A model generated the notes under the pieces. That model made no database searches and was not told where the DNA came from. It saw only the letters and a list, made by a program, of their open reading frames with translations. A program made the position numbers and the translations under genes. 64,000 bases of DNA, taken from Rheinheimera sp. 4Y26. Its GTDB lineage: Bacteria; Pseudomonadota; Gammaproteobacteria; Enterobacterales; Alteromonadaceae. Within the stretch, counting starts at the first letter, position 1. Each line of letters opens with the position of its first letter. The stretch lies in the NCBI RefSeq assembly GCF_025245835.1, contig NZ_JAOBWS010000001.1, positions 558,001 to 622,000 on the forward strand, written 5' to 3'. Shown here one piece after another: positions 12,867-22,588 of this stretch.

Positions 12867-13769
12867 TTATGGCTGGATCAACAACAAATAAGCTTCAGTG
12901 ATTTGTTCACCCCAGAGCATGGCAATCCAGCCGGCCGCAGCTATGTAAGGACCAAATGGAATAGCATTATTTTTATCTTTGCCCTTTACAGCCAGATAGA
13001 TAGAACCCACCACAGCCCCGACCAGGGATGATAACAAGATAATCAGTGGCAGTTGTTGCCAACCAAGCAAGGCACCAAATACGGCCAGCAATTTAAAATC
13101 ACCATAACCCATGCCTTCTTTGCCGGTCAGCAATTTAAACAGCCAATACACCGACCAGAGCGCCAGATAACCCAGAGCTGCGCCTGTGATAGCCCCGGCA
13201 GCGTCGGTTTTACTAAAGCCCGCCACTGCGGCCACCAGCACCAGCCATAACAGGGGCAGGGTGATTTGATCGGGCAATAACATTTTATCGATATCAATAA
13301 AAGTCAGTGCCAACAGCGCCCAGGTCACAGCTAAATATAAAAAGCCTGTGGCTGTTGCGCCCATTTGCCAGGCCACTACCGCAGATATCAGTGCAGTGCC
13401 AAGCTCCAATAGCGGGTATCGCAAGCTGACAGGCGCTTTGCAATAACGACATTTGCCTTTGAGCAGCAGATAACTGAGCAGTGGAATATTATCCAGCGCC
13501 GACAGCTGATGCTGACAATGCGGACAAGCAGAGCGGGGCACTGCCAGATTAAATACCGGTGTTTTTGATTGTGATTCGTTTGATGACAGCTCTGGCGAAA
13601 AATATTCCTGATATTCCTCTTTCCAGCTGCGTTCCATCATCAGCGGTAAGCGGTAGACCACCACATTTAAAAAACTGCCAACACAAAGGCTGAACAAAAA
13701 CACCACAGCGGTAAAAACATAAGGCGACTGCTGCAAATACAACAATACTTCTGCACCAGACAACATCAT
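12867..13769 (-). CDS. pilD: Type IV prepilin leader peptidase / N-methyltransferase PilD
   Basis: PilD cleaves the leader of prepilins and type II secretion pseudopilins and N-methylates the new N-terminus, in the inner membrane. The 300-residue product has the cytoplasmic zinc domain with two CxxC pairs (C82/C85 and C107/C110). The two aspartyl catalytic motifs of the GxGD family are FIDIDKMLLPD (D159) and GYGDFK (D224), set among several membrane helices. The start overlaps the pilC stop; the next ATG, 3 bp downstream, is equally possible. In E. coli, guaC occupies this spot. Confidence 0.96.
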   Translation of the reverse strand: MMLSGAEVLLYLQQSPYVFTAVVFLFSLCVGSFLNVVVYRLPLMMERSWKEEYQEYFSPELSSNESQSKTPVFNLAVPRSACPHCQHQLSALDNIPLLSYLLLKGKCRYCKAPVSLRYPLLELGTALISAVVAWQMGATATGFLYLAVTWALLALTFIDIDKMLLPDQITLPLLWLVLVAAVAGFSKTDAAGAITGAALGYLALWSVYWLFKLLTGKEGMGYGDFKLLAVFGALLGWQQLPLIILLSSLVGAVVGSIYLAVKGKDKNNAIPFGPYIAAAGWIAMLWGEQITEAYLLLIQP

Positions 13770-14992
13770 TTGATCACCGAACCCAGTTGGAAAATTGGTA
13801 AATACATAGCGACAATCAAACCACCGATAATCACACCCAGTACCGCCATAATCATTGGCTCAAGCAGCGCAGTTAAACCGTCTACCGCGTCGTCTACTTC
13901 CTGTTCATAAATATTAGCCACCCGGGCCAGCATATCGTCTAAAGAGCCCGATTCTTCACCAATAGACACCATCTGAATCACCATTTCCGGGAATCTGTTG
14001 GTGGTTTTCATCGAGCTGAACATCTGGCCACCGGCGGAAACATCGGCTCTGACTTCCATAATGGCATTTTTATAAATTTCGTTGCCGGCAGCGCCAGCGG
14101 CAGATTCCAGCGCTTCAATCAGCGGTACACCGGCCGCAAAAGTGGTGGATAAGGTCCGGGCATAACGGGCAACAGCTGCTTTATTAATAATCATGCCCAT
14201 CACCGGCAGTTTTAATGCCATGGCATCAGCTGCGGTTTTAAACTGCAGGTTGTTGTGATAAGCCTTTCTGAACATATATAACGCAATAATGATGGCGGCC
14301 AACACCACCCACCAATAACTTTGCATCCATTCTGAGATACCCAAAACAAAGAGGGTAAAACCAGGCAGTTCAGCGCCAAAACCAGCAAAAATTTCGGCAA
14401 AGGACGGCACCACAAAAATCAGCAAAATTGAGGTCACGATCAGTGCAACAACTGTAACGGCGATAGGATAGAACATCGCTTTTTTAATTTTGGATTTAAG
14501 GGCTTCTGCTTTTTCTTTATAGGTGGCAACACGATCAAAAATGCGGTCAAGGGCACCGGACTGTTCACCTGATTTGACCAGGTCACAATACAATTCATCA
14601 AAATATTTTGGATGTTCGCGCAGCACTTCAGACAGCGGAATACCACTTTGCACTTTTACCGACACTTTTTGCATTAAATCACGCAAAGATTTTTTGTCGG
14701 CACCGCTGCTGATGAGGTCAATGGATTGCACCAGGGGTACGCCGGCAGCCAGCATAGTGGCAATCTGGCGGGTTAACACCGCGACATCAGCTGGCGTGAC
14801 CTTGGCATCACCGCCGATCAGGCTTTTACGTTTTTTGGTAACAATGGATGGCGTTATGCCTTGTTGGCGCAATAAAGCTTTTGCTTCGTTAATAGAGTTA
14901 GCGCGAATTTCACCTTCGGCTTTTTTCCCCCGGCGGTTTACCCCTTTCCAGGAAAAGTTGTCCTGCTCTTTTATTTTTGGTTGTGGAGCCAT
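13766..14992 (-). CDS. pilC: Type IV pilus inner-membrane platform protein PilC
   Basis: PilC is the polytopic platform that couples the PilB and PilT motors to pilin assembly. The 408-residue product has two T2SSF domains (about 75-200 and 275-400), each followed by hydrophobic segments, and an N-terminal cytoplasmic part with FSWKGVNRRGKK. LTRQIATMLAAGVPLVQS and the second-domain YARTLSTTFAAGVPLIEA repeat the same motif, and GEESGSLDDML is typical. It is the second gene of pilBCD; pilB ends 95 bp upstream. Confidence 0.97.
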   Translation of the reverse strand: MAPQPKIKEQDNFSWKGVNRRGKKAEGEIRANSINEAKALLRQQGITPSIVTKKRKSLIGGDAKVTPADVAVLTRQIATMLAAGVPLVQSIDLISSGADKKSLRDLMQKVSVKVQSGIPLSEVLREHPKYFDELYCDLVKSGEQSGALDRIFDRVATYKEKAEALKSKIKKAMFYPIAVTVVALIVTSILLIFVVPSFAEIFAGFGAELPGFTLFVLGISEWMQSYWWVVLAAIIIALYMFRKAYHNNLQFKTAADAMALKLPVMGMIINKAAVARYARTLSTTFAAGVPLIEALESAAGAAGNEIYKNAIMEVRADVSAGGQMFSSMKTTNRFPEMVIQMVSIGEESGSLDDMLARVANIYEQEVDDAVDGLTALLEPMIMAVLGVIIGGLIVAMYLPIFQLGSVIK

Positions 14993-15087: not shown

Positions 15088-16776
15088 TTAAGCGTTTGTC
15101 ACCCGGTTAATTTCGGTCAGACTGGTTAAGCCGGCCGCTGCTTTGAGTAAACCGGATTGGCGTAAATTATTAATGCCTTCGAGCTGGGCTTGTTTGGCAA
15201 TTTCCAGTGAATTACCACCATGCATAATTTTTTCAGCAATCGCAGGCGAAATCGGCATTACTTCATAAATACCGACCCGGCCTTTATAACCGCCGGTGCA
15301 ATATTCACAGCCGACAGGTTTGCATAATTTAATACCCGGTAATTGCTCTTTGGTAAAACCCTGACGCAATAACTCTTCTTCTGGCAAGACTTCCGGGGCC
15401 TTACAGTGGCTGCATAACCGCCGCGCCAGACGCTGTGCAATAATCAGGCTGACGGAACTCGCCACGTTATAAGCCGGAACGCCCATATTCAATAAACGGG
15501 TTAAGGTTTCAGGGGCTGAGTTGGTGTGCAAAGTGCTCATTACCAAGTGGCCGGTTTGGGCCGCTTTAATGGCAATTTCGGCGGTTTCCAGATCCCGGAT
15601 TTCACCCACCATGATCACATCAGGGTCTTGCCGTAAAAAAGATTTCAGCGCCATCGGGAAGGTTAACCCTGCTTTGGGGTTTACCTGCACCTGGTTAATG
15701 CCGGGTAAGTTAATTTCCACCGGATCTTCAGCAGTGGAAATATTGGTTTCTTCGGTATTGAGAATATTCAGGCCGGTATAAAGCGATACCGTTTTACCGC
15801 TTCCTGTCGGGCCTGTGACCAGAATCATGCCCTGCGGTTGTTCAAGAGCGTTCAGATAGAGTTTTTTCTGGTTTTCTTCGTAACCCAGAATATCAATACC
15901 CAGCATGGCGCTGTCTGAATCCAGAATCCGCATAACGATTTTTTCGCCCCACAGCGTGGGCAGGCTGCTGACCCGAAAATCGATCGACTTTTTCTGCGAC
16001 AGTTTCAGTTTAATCCGACCGTCCTGCGGTACCCGTTTTTCTGCAATATCCAGACGCGACATAACTTTTAACCGGGCAGATAAGCGGCTGGACAGCGCCA
16101 CCGGCGGTGAGGCGACTTCATGCAAAATGCCGTCTATGCGAAAACGGATGCGATAACTTTTTTCATAAGGTTCAAAGTGCAAATCTGACGCCCCTTTGCG
16201 AATGGCGTCATGCAGCATCTTGTTAATAAAGGTAATAATCGGCCCGTCTTCAGCTTCATTGGTGCTGTCGTCTTCATCAGCATCGGCCAGGCCAAGTTCG
16301 CTTAAGTCCCAATCCGTATTGGAAAAACTGTCACTGGCTTTTTGGTCAAATACCCGGTCAATCAGTTTGTGCAGCTTGTCAAACTCAACCACCACCACTT
16401 CAACACGAAGGCCGGTACTGAATTCAAAATCCTCTACCGGTTGCATATCGGTTGGGTCGACTACAGCCAGAAATAAACTGCGGCCCCGTTTAAAAATGGG
16501 CAGCACATGGTGTTTGCGGATCAGTTTTTCATTACGTTCCTGCTCGGGCACATAGTCCAGATCGTAATAATCCAAATCCAGCACACTGTGCATGGTAAAA
16601 CCACCGGCTGCTGTGGCCAGCGCTGCCGGGCTAATCAGTTTTTCACCAATCAGAAAGTCGGCTGCGGTTTGATACTGATGGTTTTTTTCGGCAGCAAGTT
16701 TGGTGCAATGGCCCGCATCAATCAGGCCTGATTGGCCCAAACGGCGAAGAAGAATTGATTGCAGGTTAAAAGCCAT
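15088..16776 (-). CDS. pilB: Type IV pilus assembly ATPase PilB
   Basis: PilB is the hexameric ATPase that powers pilus extension. The 562-residue product has an N-terminal MshEN/T2SSE-N domain (about 1-150). The motor domain has Walker A GPTGSGKT near 321-328, an Asp box, Walker [11 protein letters not shown] and the His box STLHTN. A tetracysteine zinc motif is present (CSHC and CEYC in the C-terminal part). In most relatives pilA lies directly upstream of pilB, but here five glycan-related genes intervene. The 134-bp gap upstream contains its own inverted repeat and probably its promoter. Confidence 0.97.
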
Positions 16777-16793
16777 AACGACAATACATCCAT

Positions 16794-16836
16794 CTGTCAG
16801 ATAATAATGAGAAAATTAGCATTTTGATTATGACAG
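16794..16836. repeat. Inverted repeat upstream of pilB
   Basis: CTGTCA (16794-16799) and TGACAG (16831-16836) form the ends of an imperfect inverted repeat, and inner ATAAT and ATTAT extend the pairing. The AT-rich centre sits in the pilB promoter region, just downstream of the flippase-like gene stop, so it may be an operator or a weak terminator for that gene. Function is not established. Confidence 0.35.
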
Positions 16837-16910
16837 CGGGGAGGAAGAATTCAACAGTTATGATCGAACAAGCTGTGTTTAACAAATGATTTGAGATTGT
16901 CGCCGCAAGG

Positions 16911-17732
16911 TTATTGATCTTTCACCTGGGCGGGCTTATTCAGCAATACTGAACCAATGCCAAAAGTTGTGGCATGCAATAAAGACAATAAGCGGAAGAA
17001 AGCGACAAACTGCAAAAAGCCGCTGTCCTGATACCAAATACTGGCGATAGCAGCCATACCTTCCAGTACGCCAATATTGCCAGGTGTAATTTTAATTAAC
17101 GATGACGAAATAATCAGCGCTGCAAATACCAGACTTTGTTCCGTACTCACTTCAAACAAAGACATAGGTAAAATGCATGTCACACTCAGATACAACAGAC
17201 TTAATATCAGATCGTATATCACAACACCTAAGCGGACATGATGACCAATACTGCGTCTGGTGATGAAAATAACGGCATTGATCAGCAGTATCAGCAGCAA
17301 TGCAGTCCATAACATCGATTGAAAGTTCATGGAAGCATAATGGTTGACGACAAGCAGCAGTAACAGGCTGATGGCAAGTGATGCATTCTGAAATGCCATA
17401 CCCAGACTTTTGATAAAGCCAAGACCGTATCGTGTTTTCAGATACCAGATAAGCCATATTCCGCCACCTTTAAAAGGCAACACATAACTAAACAGATTCA
17501 TTCTTGCCGGAATGCTGATAATTTCCGCCAGAGACAAGTGAATATTTTCTGTGAGTTTGAGTAATGAATAAAACCGCAGTCCGGTGATCACAGACAGCAG
17601 GCAATACAGGCCAAATCCGGGTAATAAGTCTGTCCATGAAAAGGCATTGCTATCATGGAATTTAGCAACAAATATAATCCCCACTATGGCAAAAAGGATG
17701 TTAACTCCATATTTTTTAAGGAAGTTTAACAA
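16911..17732 (-). CDS. Flippase-like membrane protein (LPG synthase TM / AglD-type domain)
   Basis: The 273-residue polytopic protein appears to belong to the lysylphosphatidylglycerol-synthase transmembrane (PF03706, flippase-like) family. About seven hydrophobic helices are visible, with the family-type loop ITPGNIGVLEG (expected form PGxxGVxE) in the second half and RMNLFSYVLPFKGGG near residue 80. Family members move or modify lipid-linked sugars, so a lipid-carrier translocation step is inferred. The start is TTG at 17732, since no ATG or GTG is available before the first helix; it overlaps the upstream gene by 17 bp. It is the last gene of the island. Confidence 0.75.
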   Translation of the reverse strand: MLNFLKKYGVNILFAIVGIIFVAKFHDSNAFSWTDLLPGFGLYCLLSVITGLRFYSLLKLTENIHLSLAEIISIPARMNLFSYVLPFKGGGIWLIWYLKTRYGLGFIKSLGMAFQNASLAISLLLLLVVNHYASMNFQSMLWTALLLILLINAVIFITRRSIGHHVRLGVVIYDLILSLLYLSVTCILPMSLFEVSTEQSLVFAALIISSSLIKITPGNIGVLEGMAAIASIWYQDSGFLQFVAFFRLLSLLHATTFGIGSVLLNKPAQVKDQ

Positions 17733-18738
17733 TGTTGTTGTCTCTTAATAAGCTGAAAAATTCTTCAGTAAAATCGGGGAAAATAGTGTTGATCTGTTGT
17801 CGTTTTTCTGCACGACACTGCTCAGTTTCAGAAGTAGCCAGTGATTCGAAAAGCGCCTGTGCAAATTCATCCAGCTGTGTCGGTTTGAATGCCTGTATGA
17901 ATCCCAGTTGTCTTAAGTGTCTGATATAGGACAGTTTGTTCTCAAAACTGCTGACCTGGATAACAGGCGTGGCAAGGCAGGCGGCTTCTGCTGCCATCGT
18001 CTGCGAATCTGTAATAAGTAAGCTGGCAAAAGCCAATAAATGGTGCATATCTGCCACTGCAATTTTTTGTGTGCCCACTTCATTGGAGTGCAAAATGGTC
18101 AGATTGCTGGCATGTGCATCAAGCAGGTTTAAATGTTCTGTTGTCAGACCGGACTGACCCAGGTCGTGGTGCGCGTCAAGTTTTACTTTCCGCACAATCA
18201 GATATTGATAAGGTTTCAGCTGATACTTGTGAAGTATCTCCTTGTCTGGCGTGAACACTGCTGTCGATAAATAGGCCATTTCATGCAGCGAATTATGGAG
18301 TAGTCGTTTTTTCGCAAAATATTTAAACTGAAGCAGTTTGGGATTCACAATAAAACTGGATAACGGATAGGCGAGTAGCACATGAAGTGGGATGACCGCG
18401 TCGTCATCCTCCTGCACGTTAATAGACACCACATGACCAAATAAAGACAAATACGAAATTGACACCGAAGTGCCTATTGCCACATCAAACTGCTTTTTTT
18501 GGTGCAGACGAAGTATTTTCCAGGTTCGTAACAACCACTCCATGAATAAAGCAATCAGTCCTTTTTGTGGTTTGGAAAGGCATTGATGGCGGATGCCATA
18601 ACTGTCCAGCAATGCCAGCACATGAGGTTTATCCCTGGATACCACAGTGACCTGGTGACCGTTTTGTTGTAGTACGCTGATCATCCGGCGAAATAAATGC
18701 ACATGCGCTGCATGGCCGAGATCAAAAAGAATATTCAT
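17716..18738 (-). CDS. DUF354 family protein, GT-B-like fold
   Basis: From ATG 18738 this 340-residue protein starts with MNILFDLGHAAHVHLF, the hallmark of DUF354, a family with a glycosyltransferase-B / UDP-GlcNAc 2-epimerase-like fold usually found in surface-polysaccharide loci. The second half has LLITDSQTMAAEAACLATPVI, which resembles the nucleotide-sugar binding region of GT-B enzymes. The activity is unknown: it could be a glycosyltransferase or an epimerase-like enzyme. The start overlaps the methyltransferase stop (ATGA) and the end overlaps the flippase-like gene. An upstream GTG/TTG extension into the methyltransferase gene is not supported. Confidence 0.8.
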   Translation of the reverse strand: MNILFDLGHAAHVHLFRRMISVLQQNGHQVTVVSRDKPHVLALLDSYGIRHQCLSKPQKGLIALFMEWLLRTWKILRLHQKKQFDVAIGTSVSISYLSLFGHVVSINVQEDDDAVIPLHVLLAYPLSSFIVNPKLLQFKYFAKKRLLHNSLHEMAYLSTAVFTPDKEILHKYQLKPYQYLIVRKVKLDAHHDLGQSGLTTEHLNLLDAHASNLTILHSNEVGTQKIAVADMHHLLAFASLLITDSQTMAAEAACLATPVIQVSSFENKLSYIRHLRQLGFIQAFKPTQLDEFAQALFESLATSETEQCRAEKRQQINTIFPDFTEEFFSLLRDNNIVKLP

Positions 18739-19301
18739 AATGGCTTTTCCGCCACTGCAATAGTTTGATAACACCAGGGTCTGGGAAACGGAATGAGCCC
18801 AAATACCGGGCACGGGAAACCGCCGCTATGCAGTTTACAATTCACAAAACCGCTGATTTCCAGCATGCGAATTAACCAACGTTGCGGGAACAGCATAACG
18901 TGGTCGGACGTATAAAAGAATCTCCGGCTCAAAGTGAGCGTCAGCAAACGTTCAATAGGCGAATTTGGATTTGGGGTCGACAGTACTAACATTCCGCCGG
19001 GACGTAACACATCAAAACACTCTTGCAAAAACATCATGGGGTTTAATAAATGCTCCAGCAACTCACCCGCGACAACTGAATCGAATTGTATGGCCGGGTT
19101 TTCCTGACAAAATTCTGCCAGAGTTCCGGTAAATAATTGTTGATAATTCGACGGATGCGATGCAGGCGCCGGATCTATACCAATCAAAGATTCAGCATGC
19201 AGATAGGGGTTTGGGCTCTGGGCAAAACCAATATCAGCTATCAGGGGGCCTCTGCTCAGCTGAGCCATTTTTTTTAGACGGTAATCTTCCTTTGCCTGCA
19301 T
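18735..19301 (-). CDS. SAM-dependent methyltransferase, class I
   Basis: The 188-residue protein has a class I methyltransferase layout. The glycine-rich motif I region reads ADIGFAQSPNPYL, which is unlike the usual DIGCGxG. Then come an acidic residue after GID, FDSVVAGELLEHLLNP (motif II region), and VLRPGGMLVLSTPNP (motif III region). The ELLEHL and LRPGG segments resemble the Methyltransf_11/23 group. It lies between the DUF354 gene (4-bp overlap) and a glycosyltransferase gene (abutting), so the likely substrate is a sugar or glycan of the same pathway. Substrate and position of methylation cannot be told. Confidence 0.75.
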   Translation of the reverse strand: MQAKEDYRLKKMAQLSRGPLIADIGFAQSPNPYLHAESLIGIDPAPASHPSNYQQLFTGTLAEFCQENPAIQFDSVVAGELLEHLLNPMMFLQECFDVLRPGGMLVLSTPNPNSPIERLLTLTLSRRFFYTSDHVMLFPQRWLIRMLEISGFVNCKLHSGGFPCPVFGLIPFPRPWCYQTIAVAEKPL

Positions 19302-20183
19302 TTAGTTGTGCTCTTTTTCAGTCTCAACATAGAGCAGCTGGGTAATTTGCTCTGACACCAGTCCAACCATAAACACAATCAGTGCAGTGGTAAACATCAG
19401 GGCACTCATATTGGTAAAGCGTCCCACCGTCAGATAAGTGTACGCGTAATAACTCAAACCAACAGCAAAGACCGAAGCTGAAATCGGCAAAAACAATTTC
19501 AGCGGCGAATAGAGGGTGCCGATTTTAAAAATAATTAATAAAAATCTGATGCCGTCCTGCAATGGTCTGATATGACTTTTTCCTTGTCTTGTTGCTGCGT
19601 TAATCGGAACGTAAGCCACCGAATAACCTGCCCGGAAAAATGCCATGGTTGATGTGGTCGGGTAAGAAAAACCATTGGGTAACAGGCTTAAAATTTTCAG
19701 GAATAATGAGCGTCTGACTAACCTGAAACCAGACGTCAAATCTTCGACTTTTTGCCCGGTCACGTAACTGGCAAGTTTGTTATAAAACTTATTTGCCATA
19801 CCTCTGCCTACACTTGCCTGTGAACCTTTTTGTCTGGCGCCAACAACCATGTCATAACCTTCTGCCATCTTGTCCAGCAGCAGTTGGATATCTTTTGACT
19901 TGTGCTGACCGTCGCCATCCATAAAAACAATAAAATCGCCACTGGCATGGCGGGCACCGGTTTTTATCGCAGCGCCGTTGCCCTTGCTGTAAGGGTGGTT
20001 AATCACAGTGGCTCCGGCTTCAGCAGCAATGGTTGCAGTCTGATCGGTAGAACCATCATCGACCACAATGATTTGTGCTTGCGCAAAACTGCTCCGCAAA
20101 TCATGGACCAGCTGCCCTATCGCAAGTTGTTCGTTTTTAGCCGGAATGACAATAGACAAATTTTCTGCTTGGTATGACGTCAT
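19302..20183 (-). CDS. Family 2 glycosyltransferase, polyprenyl-phosphate sugar synthase type
   Basis: From ATG 20183 the 293-residue protein has an N-terminal GT2 domain: LSIVIPAKNE, VVDDGSTDQT, then FMDGDGQHKSKDI (DxD-type metal site) and a SGFRLVRRS segment. The C-terminus has two membrane helices (about 215-275). This arrangement matches dolichyl/polyprenyl-phosphate mannose or glucose synthases (DPM1/ArnC-like). The inferred role is to charge undecaprenyl phosphate with one sugar on the cytoplasmic side. Its start overlaps the stop of the upstream GT-C-like gene by 4 bp, which points to coupled translation. Confidence 0.85.
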   Translation of the reverse strand: MTSYQAENLSIVIPAKNEQLAIGQLVHDLRSSFAQAQIIVVDDGSTDQTATIAAEAGATVINHPYSKGNGAAIKTGARHASGDFIVFMDGDGQHKSKDIQLLLDKMAEGYDMVVGARQKGSQASVGRGMANKFYNKLASYVTGQKVEDLTSGFRLVRRSLFLKILSLLPNGFSYPTTSTMAFFRAGYSVAYVPINAATRQGKSHIRPLQDGIRFLLIIFKIGTLYSPLKLFLPISASVFAVGLSYYAYTYLTVGRFTNMSALMFTTALIVFMVGLVSEQITQLLYVETEKEHN

Positions 20184-22090
20184 GGTTGGCCCAGTTTTTT
20201 TTGTTCCAGACGCAGTGTCAGGTCTTCGCATTTTTGCTGTTTCTGTATTCTGAGAAACACATTAAAAGTTTTGTTCAAACACAGCTGTTGCAAAAATGCT
20301 TCTGCCTTGCTGCTGTCGTGCTCGTCCAATAAATTATTAAAAATGACTTCCCCCAACTGCAGGCTGGGCCTGGTAGCAAAAGCTTGCTGCAGGTACTGTA
20401 AACTGGCGGCTTTATCATTCAGGCTGTCATAAAGATCGTGCAGGTTCAGCAGCAGGGCAAAATGTTTGCCCGGGTTAATATCAAGGGTCTGATGCTGCAA
20501 TAACAGCTTGTTCAGTGCAACAAGCTCAGGAAGACCAAGCAATGAGCAATTTTTGTTTTGAATTTGTGTTTTAAAACTGGCCAAAACAGCAGGAGCACTG
20601 CCAATAATATGCTGACGCTCTGCCAGTTGTTGAACTCTGCTGATATTCTCACGCATTGAACCTTCATCAGCGACAGCACAGGCGACAAGGGCATATTGCA
20701 GCCGTGAGCCAATACATTGATCACAAGCTTTAACCTGAGCCTGTAATGCAAAATAAGCCTGCATGGTGTTGCCTTGCTCCAGATTCAGCAATGCGTAATG
20801 CTCTGTCACCCGCTCGGAACCAAATTGCTTTTCAAACCATAATTCAGCGGCATGCAAAGGTTTTCCCCACAACTGAACTACAAATGCCGTAATGCCAACC
20901 AGCAGCAGTAAATAAGCAGCTGAACCCAGCATCACCAGTTGATGATACTGCTGGCTAAGCAATCTTAAGTACCAACCAATGGCAAAGCACGGGCCTAAAA
21001 TGGCAACGTAATTGCGGTGTTCAAAATACAGCTCAAGGCCAATCACTGTTGATTCAAGCAAGTGGGCGGCAAAAAACCACAATATTGCAAAACTCAGCAC
21101 CGGCTGTCGACGACGCCATTTTATGGCAACAGCCAATAAAGCCAGCACGCCAAAAATTGCGAAGCTGGCAAACCAGCTTAAGTTGTCAGGTTGAAACACC
21201 TGCATATTGTCGTGAAAGGGGTTGTAAGAAAACAGGTCAGGAAAAAATGTCAGCTTCAGGTAGCTGAGCAGTATGTAAGGTTGGGTGAGCAACCTTTCCA
21301 GCATCGTAAAATCGCGATACGGATAAACGCCACCGGTAGACATCACCACATAAAGCAGATAACCAGCAACAGCAGTAACACAACTCCATAAATACCACTG
21401 TCTGATTTTTTTATCCGGGTCCGTGGTATCGCTGAACAGGGTGCGTTCCAGTACTAATGCCAGTACCGGCAACAGGATGCCATTTTCTTTGCTAAATACG
21501 GCCAGCACAGTCATCAGCATTAAACCTGTGACTTGTTGCCACCTTGCCTTGGCTAAATTTTGTGTTGTATTGCGTAAACCCTTCACATACAACAATATTC
21601 CGGCGAGCAGGAAAAAGGCAGAAAGGCCGGTCATTCGCTGTATCACAATGAATGAAGACGAAATCTGAATGGGCGAAAATAACCACAGTGCTGTGATAAA
21701 CAAAGCTGTCCACTGCCACTGTGATATTGATGATTCTGTGCTGTTTTGTTGGTTGTGCAGATGGGACAACAGTGCAACCACAAGCGCATAAACCAGGATG
21801 CCGTTTATGGCATGCAAAACAATATTAAACCAGAGGAAATGCCCGGGCGCTAAAGGCCAGGACTGATGCTGTAAAGCAAAAGTCAGCATACTGAGCGGGC
21901 GCCCTAAGGGGCCTGAAGTCTCAGACGTAATATAGACAGCGGCGCTGAGCCAATCCTGAATGGCCTGTAATTGTGACAGGGGGCGGTAATCGTCGTAGTA
22001 CAAAGTACCTGATGTGCCAGCAGAATAAACTACGATGACAAAGGTCAGCAGCAGTAAAAGCAAGCCATATTGTTTTAGTTTTTCAATCAA
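20180..22090 (-). CDS. Large GT-C-like membrane protein, candidate pilin glycosyltransferase (TfpW-like)
   Basis: The 636-residue protein has about 10-12 membrane helices over residues 1-420 and a soluble, helical, TPR-like C-terminal region (about 430-636). The first periplasmic loop contains YYDDYRPLS, which fits the acidic pair typical of GT-C enzymes that use polyprenyl-phosphate sugars. A later loop has LELYFEHRNYVAILGP, a motif I associate with a family of membrane GT-C/TPR proteins. It is the first island gene, 99 bp downstream of pilA, which is where pilin O-glycosyltransferases such as TfpW or TfpO sit in Pseudomonas. Transfer of a sugar to PilA is inferred from this position, not shown. 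Confidence 0.65.
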   Translation of the reverse strand: MIEKLKQYGLLLLLLTFVIVVYSAGTSGTLYYDDYRPLSQLQAIQDWLSAAVYITSETSGPLGRPLSMLTFALQHQSWPLAPGHFLWFNIVLHAINGILVYALVVALLSHLHNQQNSTESSISQWQWTALFITALWLFSPIQISSSFIVIQRMTGLSAFFLLAGILLYVKGLRNTTQNLAKARWQQVTGLMLMTVLAVFSKENGILLPVLALVLERTLFSDTTDPDKKIRQWYLWSCVTAVAGYLLYVVMSTGGVYPYRDFTMLERLLTQPYILLSYLKLTFFPDLFSYNPFHDNMQVFQPDNLSWFASFAIFGVLALLAVAIKWRRRQPVLSFAILWFFAAHLLESTVIGLELYFEHRNYVAILGPCFAIGWYLRLLSQQYHQLVMLGSAAYLLLLVGITAFVVQLWGKPLHAAELWFEKQFGSERVTEHYALLNLEQGNTMQAYFALQAQVKACDQCIGSRLQYALVACAVADEGSMRENISRVQQLAERQHIIGSAPAVLASFKTQIQNKNCSLLGLPELVALNKLLLQHQTLDINPGKHFALLLNLHDLYDSLNDKAASLQYLQQAFATRPSLQLGEVIFNNLLDEHDSSKAEAFLQQLCLNKTFNVFLRIQKQQKCEDLTLRLEQKKLGQP

Positions 22091-22150
22091 GTGAACGACC
22101 AGAATAAGTTGTAATAAAAACAGTGAAACGTTTGTGGGAATTTAAAAATA

Positions 22151-22177
22151 AAAAAGGCTGCATTGCAGCCTTTTTTT
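22151..22177 (-). terminator. Terminator after pilA
   Basis: On the minus strand, AAAAAGGCTGC (22151-22161) and its complement (22165-22175) form an 11-bp stem with an ATT loop. The run of complementary A at the left end gives a U-tract in the pilA transcript. It separates abundant pilA mRNA from the island genes, although some read-through could feed them. Confidence 0.8.
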
Positions 22178-22189
22178 ATCGAACAACTA

Positions 22190-22588
22190 TTACACGCCAG
22201 GGCATGTTTTTGGTGCGTATTTCGCATCCGCAGTAGTTGCGCAAGTCCAGGCACCAGAAGTTGGGTTACGTGTCCAGGTAATTGTTTTGCCATTTACCTG
22301 AGTTGGAGCGTTCTGCAGTGTACACACGATAGTAGAAGCAGTGGTAGAGATAGTGCAGTTACCAGTAGTTGCAGATAAACCGATATCACCAGGAGCTGCA
22401 ACAGCGCCGCCGTTGTTGATTAAATTTTCAAAAGCTGTTTTACCTGCAGAAATTTCTGACAGGCCGGCTGTTACTTTTGAGCTTGCCTGGTAGCTTGAGT
22501 AAGCAGGCAGTGCTACTGCAGCGAGGATACCGATGATCGCTACTACGATCATTAATTCAATTAAGGTAAAACCTTGGTTACGTTTCAT
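22190..22588 (-). CDS. pilA: Type IV major pilin PilA
   Basis: PilA is the structural subunit of the type IV pilus. The 132-residue prepilin has a short leader MKRNQG cleaved before F7, Glu at mature position 5, and the hydrophobic helix [19 protein letters not shown]. Four cysteines (C78, C89, C116, C129) could form two disulfides; C116-C129 would close the usual C-terminal D-region loop. The second half is rich in Ser/Thr ([19 protein letters not shown]), which offers O-glycosylation sites. A good GGAGAAG ribosome site precedes the ATG. The gene has its own terminator and a sigma-54-type promoter. Confidence 0.95.

Follow-up and report, generated by a model that had tools for sequence, protein, structure and literature searches.

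In the TfpW cassette of Pseudomonas paraeruginosa PA7/Pa5196, a GT-C-type glycosyltransferase gene stands right after the pilin gene pilA (PMC12369383, PMC2809737), and the arabinose-glycan genes of PA7 lie in another genomic island (PMC12369383). The pilin-accessory cassettes of P. aeruginosa run in the order pilA, terminator, accessory glycosyltransferase (PMC11841053). Systems of the TfpO/TfpM/PglS/PglL kind transfer a lipid-linked glycan in the periplasm, and several are encoded near their target gene (PMC12645811). The TfpX/Y/Z (FimB-like) accessory proteins take the same slot after pilA and are not glycosyltransferases. In three-component systems (GtrA/GtrB/Gtr, the GT136 pentofuranose systems, and glycosylation of lipoteichoic acid and wall teichoic acid), a polyprenyl-phosphate sugar synthase is combined with an extracytoplasmic GT-C enzyme, and the acceptor is a polysaccharide (PMC11127046, PMC5836110). 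Here we analyse a stretch of 64,000 nucleotides from Rheinheimera sp. 4Y26 (contig NZ_JAOBWS010000001.1, positions 558,001 to 622,000; "the window"), in which five tightly packed genes fill positions 16911-22090 of the minus strand between pilA and pilB. Judging from gene content and conserved surroundings, this island is probably a dedicated, self-contained lipid-linked-sugar cassette that glycosylates PilA. It appears TfpW-like in position and distant ancestry, yet seems to carry its own donor synthase in the operon.

Results

A remote TfpW homologue directly follows pilA

The first island gene (20180-22090; minus strand, as are all features below) encodes a 636 aa membrane protein, the proposed pilin glycosyltransferase, recognised through its family profile, TfpW homology, structural model and linkage to pilin. 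It directly follows pilA and its terminator-like hairpin, matching the order of the P. aeruginosa pilin-accessory cassette (PMC11841053). A preliminary description of this DNA, made without database searches, had called the protein GT-C-like and the gene set not one recognised from described pilin glycosylation loci; the homology below supports the former and, together with this gene order, calls for correction of the latter. No Pfam or NCBIfam model matched the protein at E<=0.1. The profile of its family aligned with that of TfpW over 386 columns (hhalign, 97.4%, E 9e-12), and a single BLASTP comparison of the two proteins gave 24% identity over 250 aa (E 6e-4). Against the family profile TfpW scored 45 bits, a weak match in a genus of 25 genomes; its locus (L244), which we read as that of PA7 from its gene order, comprises pilA, TfpW (641 aa) and TfpX (245 aa).

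The similarity covers the membrane domain, including a loop with two adjacent aspartates. Almost all of the 154 aligned proteins, TfpW among them, share D33, D34, R64, R152, K201 and E202; D33 is present in all 151 rows that have a residue there (again including TfpW) and D34 in 150 of 151. E346, S347, T348 and an EHRNY stretch differ in TfpW as aligned, although our named relatives were retrieved through the EHRNY stretch, so that its conservation among them is biased. The tree distance from the window protein to TfpW is 6.7, against 1.75 to its nearest relative, which together with the low identity places it outside a close TfpW subfamily. By sequence, then, it is a remote homologue of the pilin arabinosyltransferase TfpW in a separate family. 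Its own clade (support 0.998) includes seven further proteins, from Thauera, one Pseudomonadaceae genome, three Colwellia, locus L064 and a gammaproteobacterial metagenome-assembled genome, and this spread suggests horizontal transfer.

The AlphaFold model of the protein (pLDDT 84.2, pTM 0.83) is all-helical. Hydrophobic helices make up its first two thirds, helix 1 is followed by a loop, and the C-terminal part is a helical repeat domain. This last domain resembles tetratricopeptide repeat (TPR) proteins both in Foldseek and in the comparison of the family profile with PDB sequences, where the 60 best of 99 matches were TPR proteins only. In Foldseek, TPR proteins ranked at the top, and a chain of the Sec61-TRAP-OSTA entry 8b6l, presumably the catalytic STT3A, stood at rank 44 with a TMq of 0.35. 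Structure prediction, proposed earlier as a check, thus gave a usable helical model but not a direct fold assignment; because the solved GT-C fold ranks only 44th, the GT-C label rests mainly on TfpW homology.

The GT-C family recurs behind pilin genes

A single-sequence scan of genome contigs with the GT-C protein found no relative, and an alignment-based scan through one motif did. Relatives occur in 14 of 394 genomes of the order (E<=1e-10), in 109 of the 369 class genomes sampled (E<=1e-20) and in 11 of 248 genomes from the family to which Halopseudomonas aestusnigri belongs, presumed to be Pseudomonadaceae; the class and family labels of these sets are inferred from named relatives. A tblastn search of plasmids with the GT-C protein gave no match. 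Linkage was counted in the named loci (the best 80 of at least 577 confirmed relatives), in the order loci, in those 9 of the 11 Pseudomonadaceae matches that lie outside the named set, and in 34 regions hand-picked, not drawn at random, from the class matches. One named locus and three class-sample loci were dropped beforehand, having no GT-C open reading frame (ORF) above 200 bits.

By a six-frame motif scan, the 2 kb upstream of GT-C contain a same-strand pilin at 57/79 named, 8/9 Pseudomonadaceae, 8/14 order and 17/31 class-sample loci. Among control ORFs, which were other ORFs of at least 400 aa at the named, Pseudomonadaceae and class-sample loci, 2 of 255 have such a pilin. Counting more crudely, from ORFs, gave 50/79, 6/9, 8/14 and 17/31, respectively. 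Eight of the 22 named loci without a pilin have too little sequence. The adjacency of pilin and GT-C is therefore recurrent, not peculiar to this locus. Furthermore, PilB was matched at E<=1e-207 in 107 of the 109 class genomes that carry GT-C (counted by eye, kinship ignored); overall, PilB is above its curated cut-off in 252 of the 369 class genomes.

One of the two GT-C genomes without such a PilB match (G065) carries the gene beside a type II secretion-like cluster (L073). Distant GT-C relatives at L073, L075 and L240 adjoin type II secretion-like genes (PilB/GspE- or PilC/GspF-like), and L073 and L075 also have pseudopilins nearby. These neighbours hint that the substrates of the wider family may be type IV filament subunits in general. 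At L081, L082, L083, L114, L117, L138 and L102, two or three GT-C genes follow one another in tandem behind one or two pilin genes, as if separate copies served different pilins or sugars. In G057 (L048:7601-10407), a GT-C/GT2 pair is divergent from pilA and pilA-pilB is intact, so the pair can occupy either side of the pilin.

Partner genes and recurrence of the cassette

The second gene (19302-20183) encodes a GT2 enzyme (PF00535, Glycos_transf_2, 118.9 bits) with two C-terminal hydrophobic segments by hydropathy, the proposed polyprenyl-phosphate sugar synthase. Its top seven of 37 PDB sequences are three undecaprenyl-phosphate 4-deoxy-4-formamido-L-arabinose transferases, one dolichol monophosphate mannose synthase and three entries for sll0501, in agreement with the earlier assignment to the polyprenyl-phosphate type. 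We take the formamido-arabinose transferases to be ArnC and sll0501 to be a GtrB. Close behind GT-C and in the same orientation, a GT2 gene is present at 34/79 named, 9/9 Pseudomonadaceae, 6/14 order and 11/31 class-sample loci.

The third gene (18735-19301) encodes a 188 aa SAM-dependent methyltransferase (PF13489, Methyltransf_23, 45.9 bits), proposed to act on sugar and 53% identical to the product of the gene after GT2 in Colwellia sp. 12G3; a PADLOC scan returned one weak methyltransferase match. The fourth (17716-18738) encodes a 340 aa DUF354 protein (PF04007, 44.1 bits) that is GT-B/epimerase-like, with sub-threshold matches to Glyco_transf_4 and Epimerase_2, and would be a second glycosyltransferase or a sugar epimerase. 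It aligns with a Colwellia cassette protein at 29% identity over 312 aa (E 2e-41).

All five gene classes recur beside pilA in L064, from another genus of the same family, and in L079, from Colwellia sp. 12G3, a recurrence that the preliminary description had proposed to look for. Both loci run pilin, GT-C, GT2, methyltransferase, LPG_synthase_TM protein, DUF354-related protein, pilB, with a TfpX-like gene after the pilin in L079; in the window, by contrast, DUF354 precedes the membrane protein. Two further Colwellia cassettes (L078, L080) hold a PF03706 protein and a methyltransferase. That description had also held that the same operon far from pilin genes would speak against pilin glycosylation: the two other five-class cassettes lie beside a pilin, but at 14 of the 31 class-sample loci the 2 kb upstream of GT-C hold no same-strand pilin. 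No description of the five-gene cassette was found in the open-access literature, a scope that does not establish its absence from print.

The fifth gene (16911-17732) encodes a hydrophobic membrane protein of 273 aa, which is at best a weak candidate for the lipid-sugar flippase. Its earlier assignment to the LPG-synthase-TM type is at most tentative. No Pfam or NCBIfam model matched at E<=0.1; hhalign gave 0.5% against two PF03706 cassette proteins and 18% (E 1.3e-3) when the profile comprised eight proteins from cassettes; in this alignment TPGNIGVLEG pairs with PAGLGVRE. The cassettes at L064, L079, L080 and L078 carry PF03706 proteins, and those at L065, L067 and L070 a similarly sized protein that PF03706 does not match. 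The AlphaFold model (pLDDT 53.9) is too poor to use, PHROGs matched only at E 0.03-0.09, and plasmid tblastn gave no match. Neither a GtrA nor a MATE flippase was recognised among the operon genes by Pfam, and a search of the genome at E<=0.01 gave no GtrA-family flippase.

The island occupies a variable slot between pilA and pilB

The gene order of the preliminary description holds, with all five genes between pilA and pilB, and so do its tight joins. By eye, GT-C and GT2 overlap by 4 bp, GT2 and the methyltransferase abut (TAA ATG), the methyltransferase and DUF354 overlap by 4 bp, and DUF354 and the membrane protein by 17 bp. The sole gap, 99 bp between pilA and GT-C, contains a strong terminator-like hairpin (22150-22176; 12-pair stem with a T tail, -16 kcal/mol, z -4.68), which should restrict transcription from pilA into the island. 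The first and the last island genes both start with TTG (22090 and 17732), and no obvious ribosome-binding site is seen by eye before GT-C, which would fit low expression. The G+C content per 500-base window is about 0.40-0.48 in the island, 0.44-0.50 in pilB-pilC and mostly 0.48-0.53 from nadC on; the island is thus somewhat low, not strikingly so.

Compared by BLASTN with the sister genome G018, whose PilB is 100% identical, positions 16861-22190 of the window stand in place of 104 bp. Homology ends at the pilA stop codon and resumes at 16860, 84 bp 5' of pilB, so that the conserved pilB leader (16777-16860) marks the downstream island edge. The 84 bp are retained in the three island-free congener loci compared (L026, L027, L029), and their presence in L027 and L029 places the island between two likely transcription units. 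Hence the island splits pilA from pilB in gene order, as first described, but pilA has its own terminator and pilB keeps its leader where no island is present. A promoter-like site lies in the leader (16854-16827), although such sites are no commoner than in shuffled sequences. Downstream follow pilB (15088-16776; TIGR02538, 830 bits, above cut-off) and pilC (13766-14992; T2SSF, 223.4 bits).

Among 22 genomes of the genus, all have pilB, and pilA and pilB are direct neighbours by ORF calls in 18. Apart from the window genome, only G020 has the island, truncated where its contig ends; it holds four of the five genes (membrane protein 56%, DUF354 71%, methyltransferase 73% and partial GT2 83% identical); GT-C was searched for there and not found, being either lost or in an assembly gap, and no other congener has a GT-C match. 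The region is cut by a contig end in G008. In G007 (L031:12396-13139), the gap before pilB carries a TfpX-like gene on the opposite strand, adjoining a second pilin gene, which indicates that the slot is variable within the genus.

The pilin itself (22190-22588) is a type IVa major pilin of 132 aa (PF00114, 78.5 bits; PF07963, 42.3 bits) and the likely glycan acceptor. Its Ser/Thr fraction past mature residue 50 is 0.263. Taking one pilin per genus genome (G020 and G008 contributed none, owing to contig ends), this ranks 2 of 20, inside the range of 0.169-0.275 of the 19 island-free congeners (mean 0.221, sd 0.027); GT-C-linked pilins from other genera average 0.228 (sd 0.055, n=13). The Ser/Thr-rich second half once singled out is thus not unusual for the genus. 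Between the window and G018, the 3' half of pilA is 0.69 identical and pilB 0.96, the corresponding values for pairs of island-free congeners being 0.55-0.70 and 0.81-0.89.

Discussion

Four parts of the proposed reading are supported by calculation: the homology of GT-C to TfpW, that of GT2 to polyprenyl-phosphate transferases, the linkage to pilin and the recurrence of the five classes. For the rest, we infer the acceptor and its residues, the membrane orientation, the order of steps, the identity of the sugar, the flippase and the read-through. Presumably, GT2 would load a sugar onto polyprenyl phosphate at the inner membrane face, the DUF354 protein may add or convert a second sugar, and the methyltransferase may methylate the glycan. 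A flippase, perhaps the last gene product, would carry the lipid-linked sugar across the membrane, and GT-C, with its double-aspartate loop and TPR-like domain in the periplasm, would transfer the glycan to Ser/Thr residues of PilA. If the pilA terminator is leaky, read-through would couple enzyme supply to pilin expression.

Several points weigh against a pilin-dedicated cassette. The glycan on PilA is a prediction from the genes. The linkage rate of the named loci is biased upwards by their retrieval through one motif as the best 80 of at least 577, and the wider GT-C family may have other acceptors, since an upstream same-strand pilin is missing from 14/31 class-sample and 6/14 order loci. 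The latter six are L048, L072, L071, L073, L074 and L075, although L048 has a pilin on the other side of GT-C and L072 lies at a contig edge. The GT2 partner is directly downstream in only 34/79 named and 11/31 class-sample loci. Foldseek put TPR proteins, not GT-C enzymes, first for the modelled GT-C protein. As for the flippase candidate, it is an orphan: outside its own genome and G020, the 394 genomes of the order yielded nothing beyond fragmentary matches of 17-19.5 bits. Ser/Thr enrichment has been dropped as support for glycosylation, the value lying within the genus range. Nor do we claim that the pilA 3' half and the island were swapped as one unit, because the 3' half diverges as much between island-free congeners. 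The dedicated lipid-linked route to pilin first proposed is thus supported by the linkage, the five-class recurrence in two other lineages and the GT2 relatives; its flippase and Ser/Thr arguments are weak.

These features can be read otherwise. A polyprenyl-phosphate glycosyltransferase and a GT-C transferase, both encoded by homology in this operon, are the architecture of O-antigen and teichoic-acid side-chain systems (PMC11127046, PMC5836110), so that a three-component sugar-modification system acting on a polysaccharide or another envelope protein might merely be lodged at the pil locus. The class-sample GT-Cs without an upstream pilin would fit, as would L074 and L075, which by eye from N-termini stand beside nucleotide-sugar-like genes; but pilin linkage far above the control, the TfpW homology and the co-occurrence with PilB make this unlikely. 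The window also differs from three-component systems in that its acceptor would by linkage be pilin, and it adds a methyltransferase, a DUF354 protein and a TPR-like domain on GT-C, without a recognised GtrA or MATE.

The place after pilA, the remote homology and the shared D, D, R, R, K and E residues would also suit membership of the TfpW family itself, in which case the enzyme would transfer D-arabinofuranose from decaprenyl-phospho-arabinose. We think this highly improbable given the 24% identity, the 45-bit profile score and the differences at E346, S347, T348 and EHRNY (the last with the retrieval bias noted above), and given an operon GT2 akin to nucleotide-sugar-dependent lipid glycosyltransferases. 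Unlike PA7, whose arabinose-glycan genes are elsewhere (PMC12369383), the window has GT2, methyltransferase and DUF354 in the operon, and no TfpX-like gene was recognised in the island; the slot is that of TfpX/Y/Z, as in G007, and in Colwellia L079 one such gene stands between pilin and GT-C. An oligosaccharyltransferase system of PglL/TfpO/TfpM type can scarcely be entertained and is already contradicted. TfpO, TfpM and PglS are likewise often encoded near their targets (PMC12645811), but the window GT-C has no O-antigen-ligase domain (Wzy_C) at E<=0.1, which all known members have according to that review; the pilin ends in CPGV, with Val and not Ser/Thr at its C terminus; and the one Wzy_C match above cut-off in the genome is on another contig.

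The proposed PilA-glycosylating cassette may belong to something wider. The evidence is about evenly balanced on whether pilin-linked GT-C proteins, often with GT2, form a large pilin-dedicated family of Gammaproteobacteria that has no Pfam or NCBIfam model and is distinct from TfpW, TfpO and PglL, in which swappable tails of methyltransferases, flippase-like proteins and glycosyltransferases diversify the pilus glycan, the window being one self-contained five-gene form. Such a common family beyond the reach of Pfam and NCBIfam is the more interesting part. If so, GT-C/lipid-linked pilus glycosylation would be far more widespread in Gammaproteobacteria than one would conclude from TfpW alone, and compact cassettes that include a donor synthase would lend themselves to experiments on how a GT-C enzyme selects its pilin. 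The pilA-pilB gap would then be a variable slot, empty or filled with a TfpX-like gene or a glycan cassette, and its content could modulate phage binding and behaviour on surfaces.

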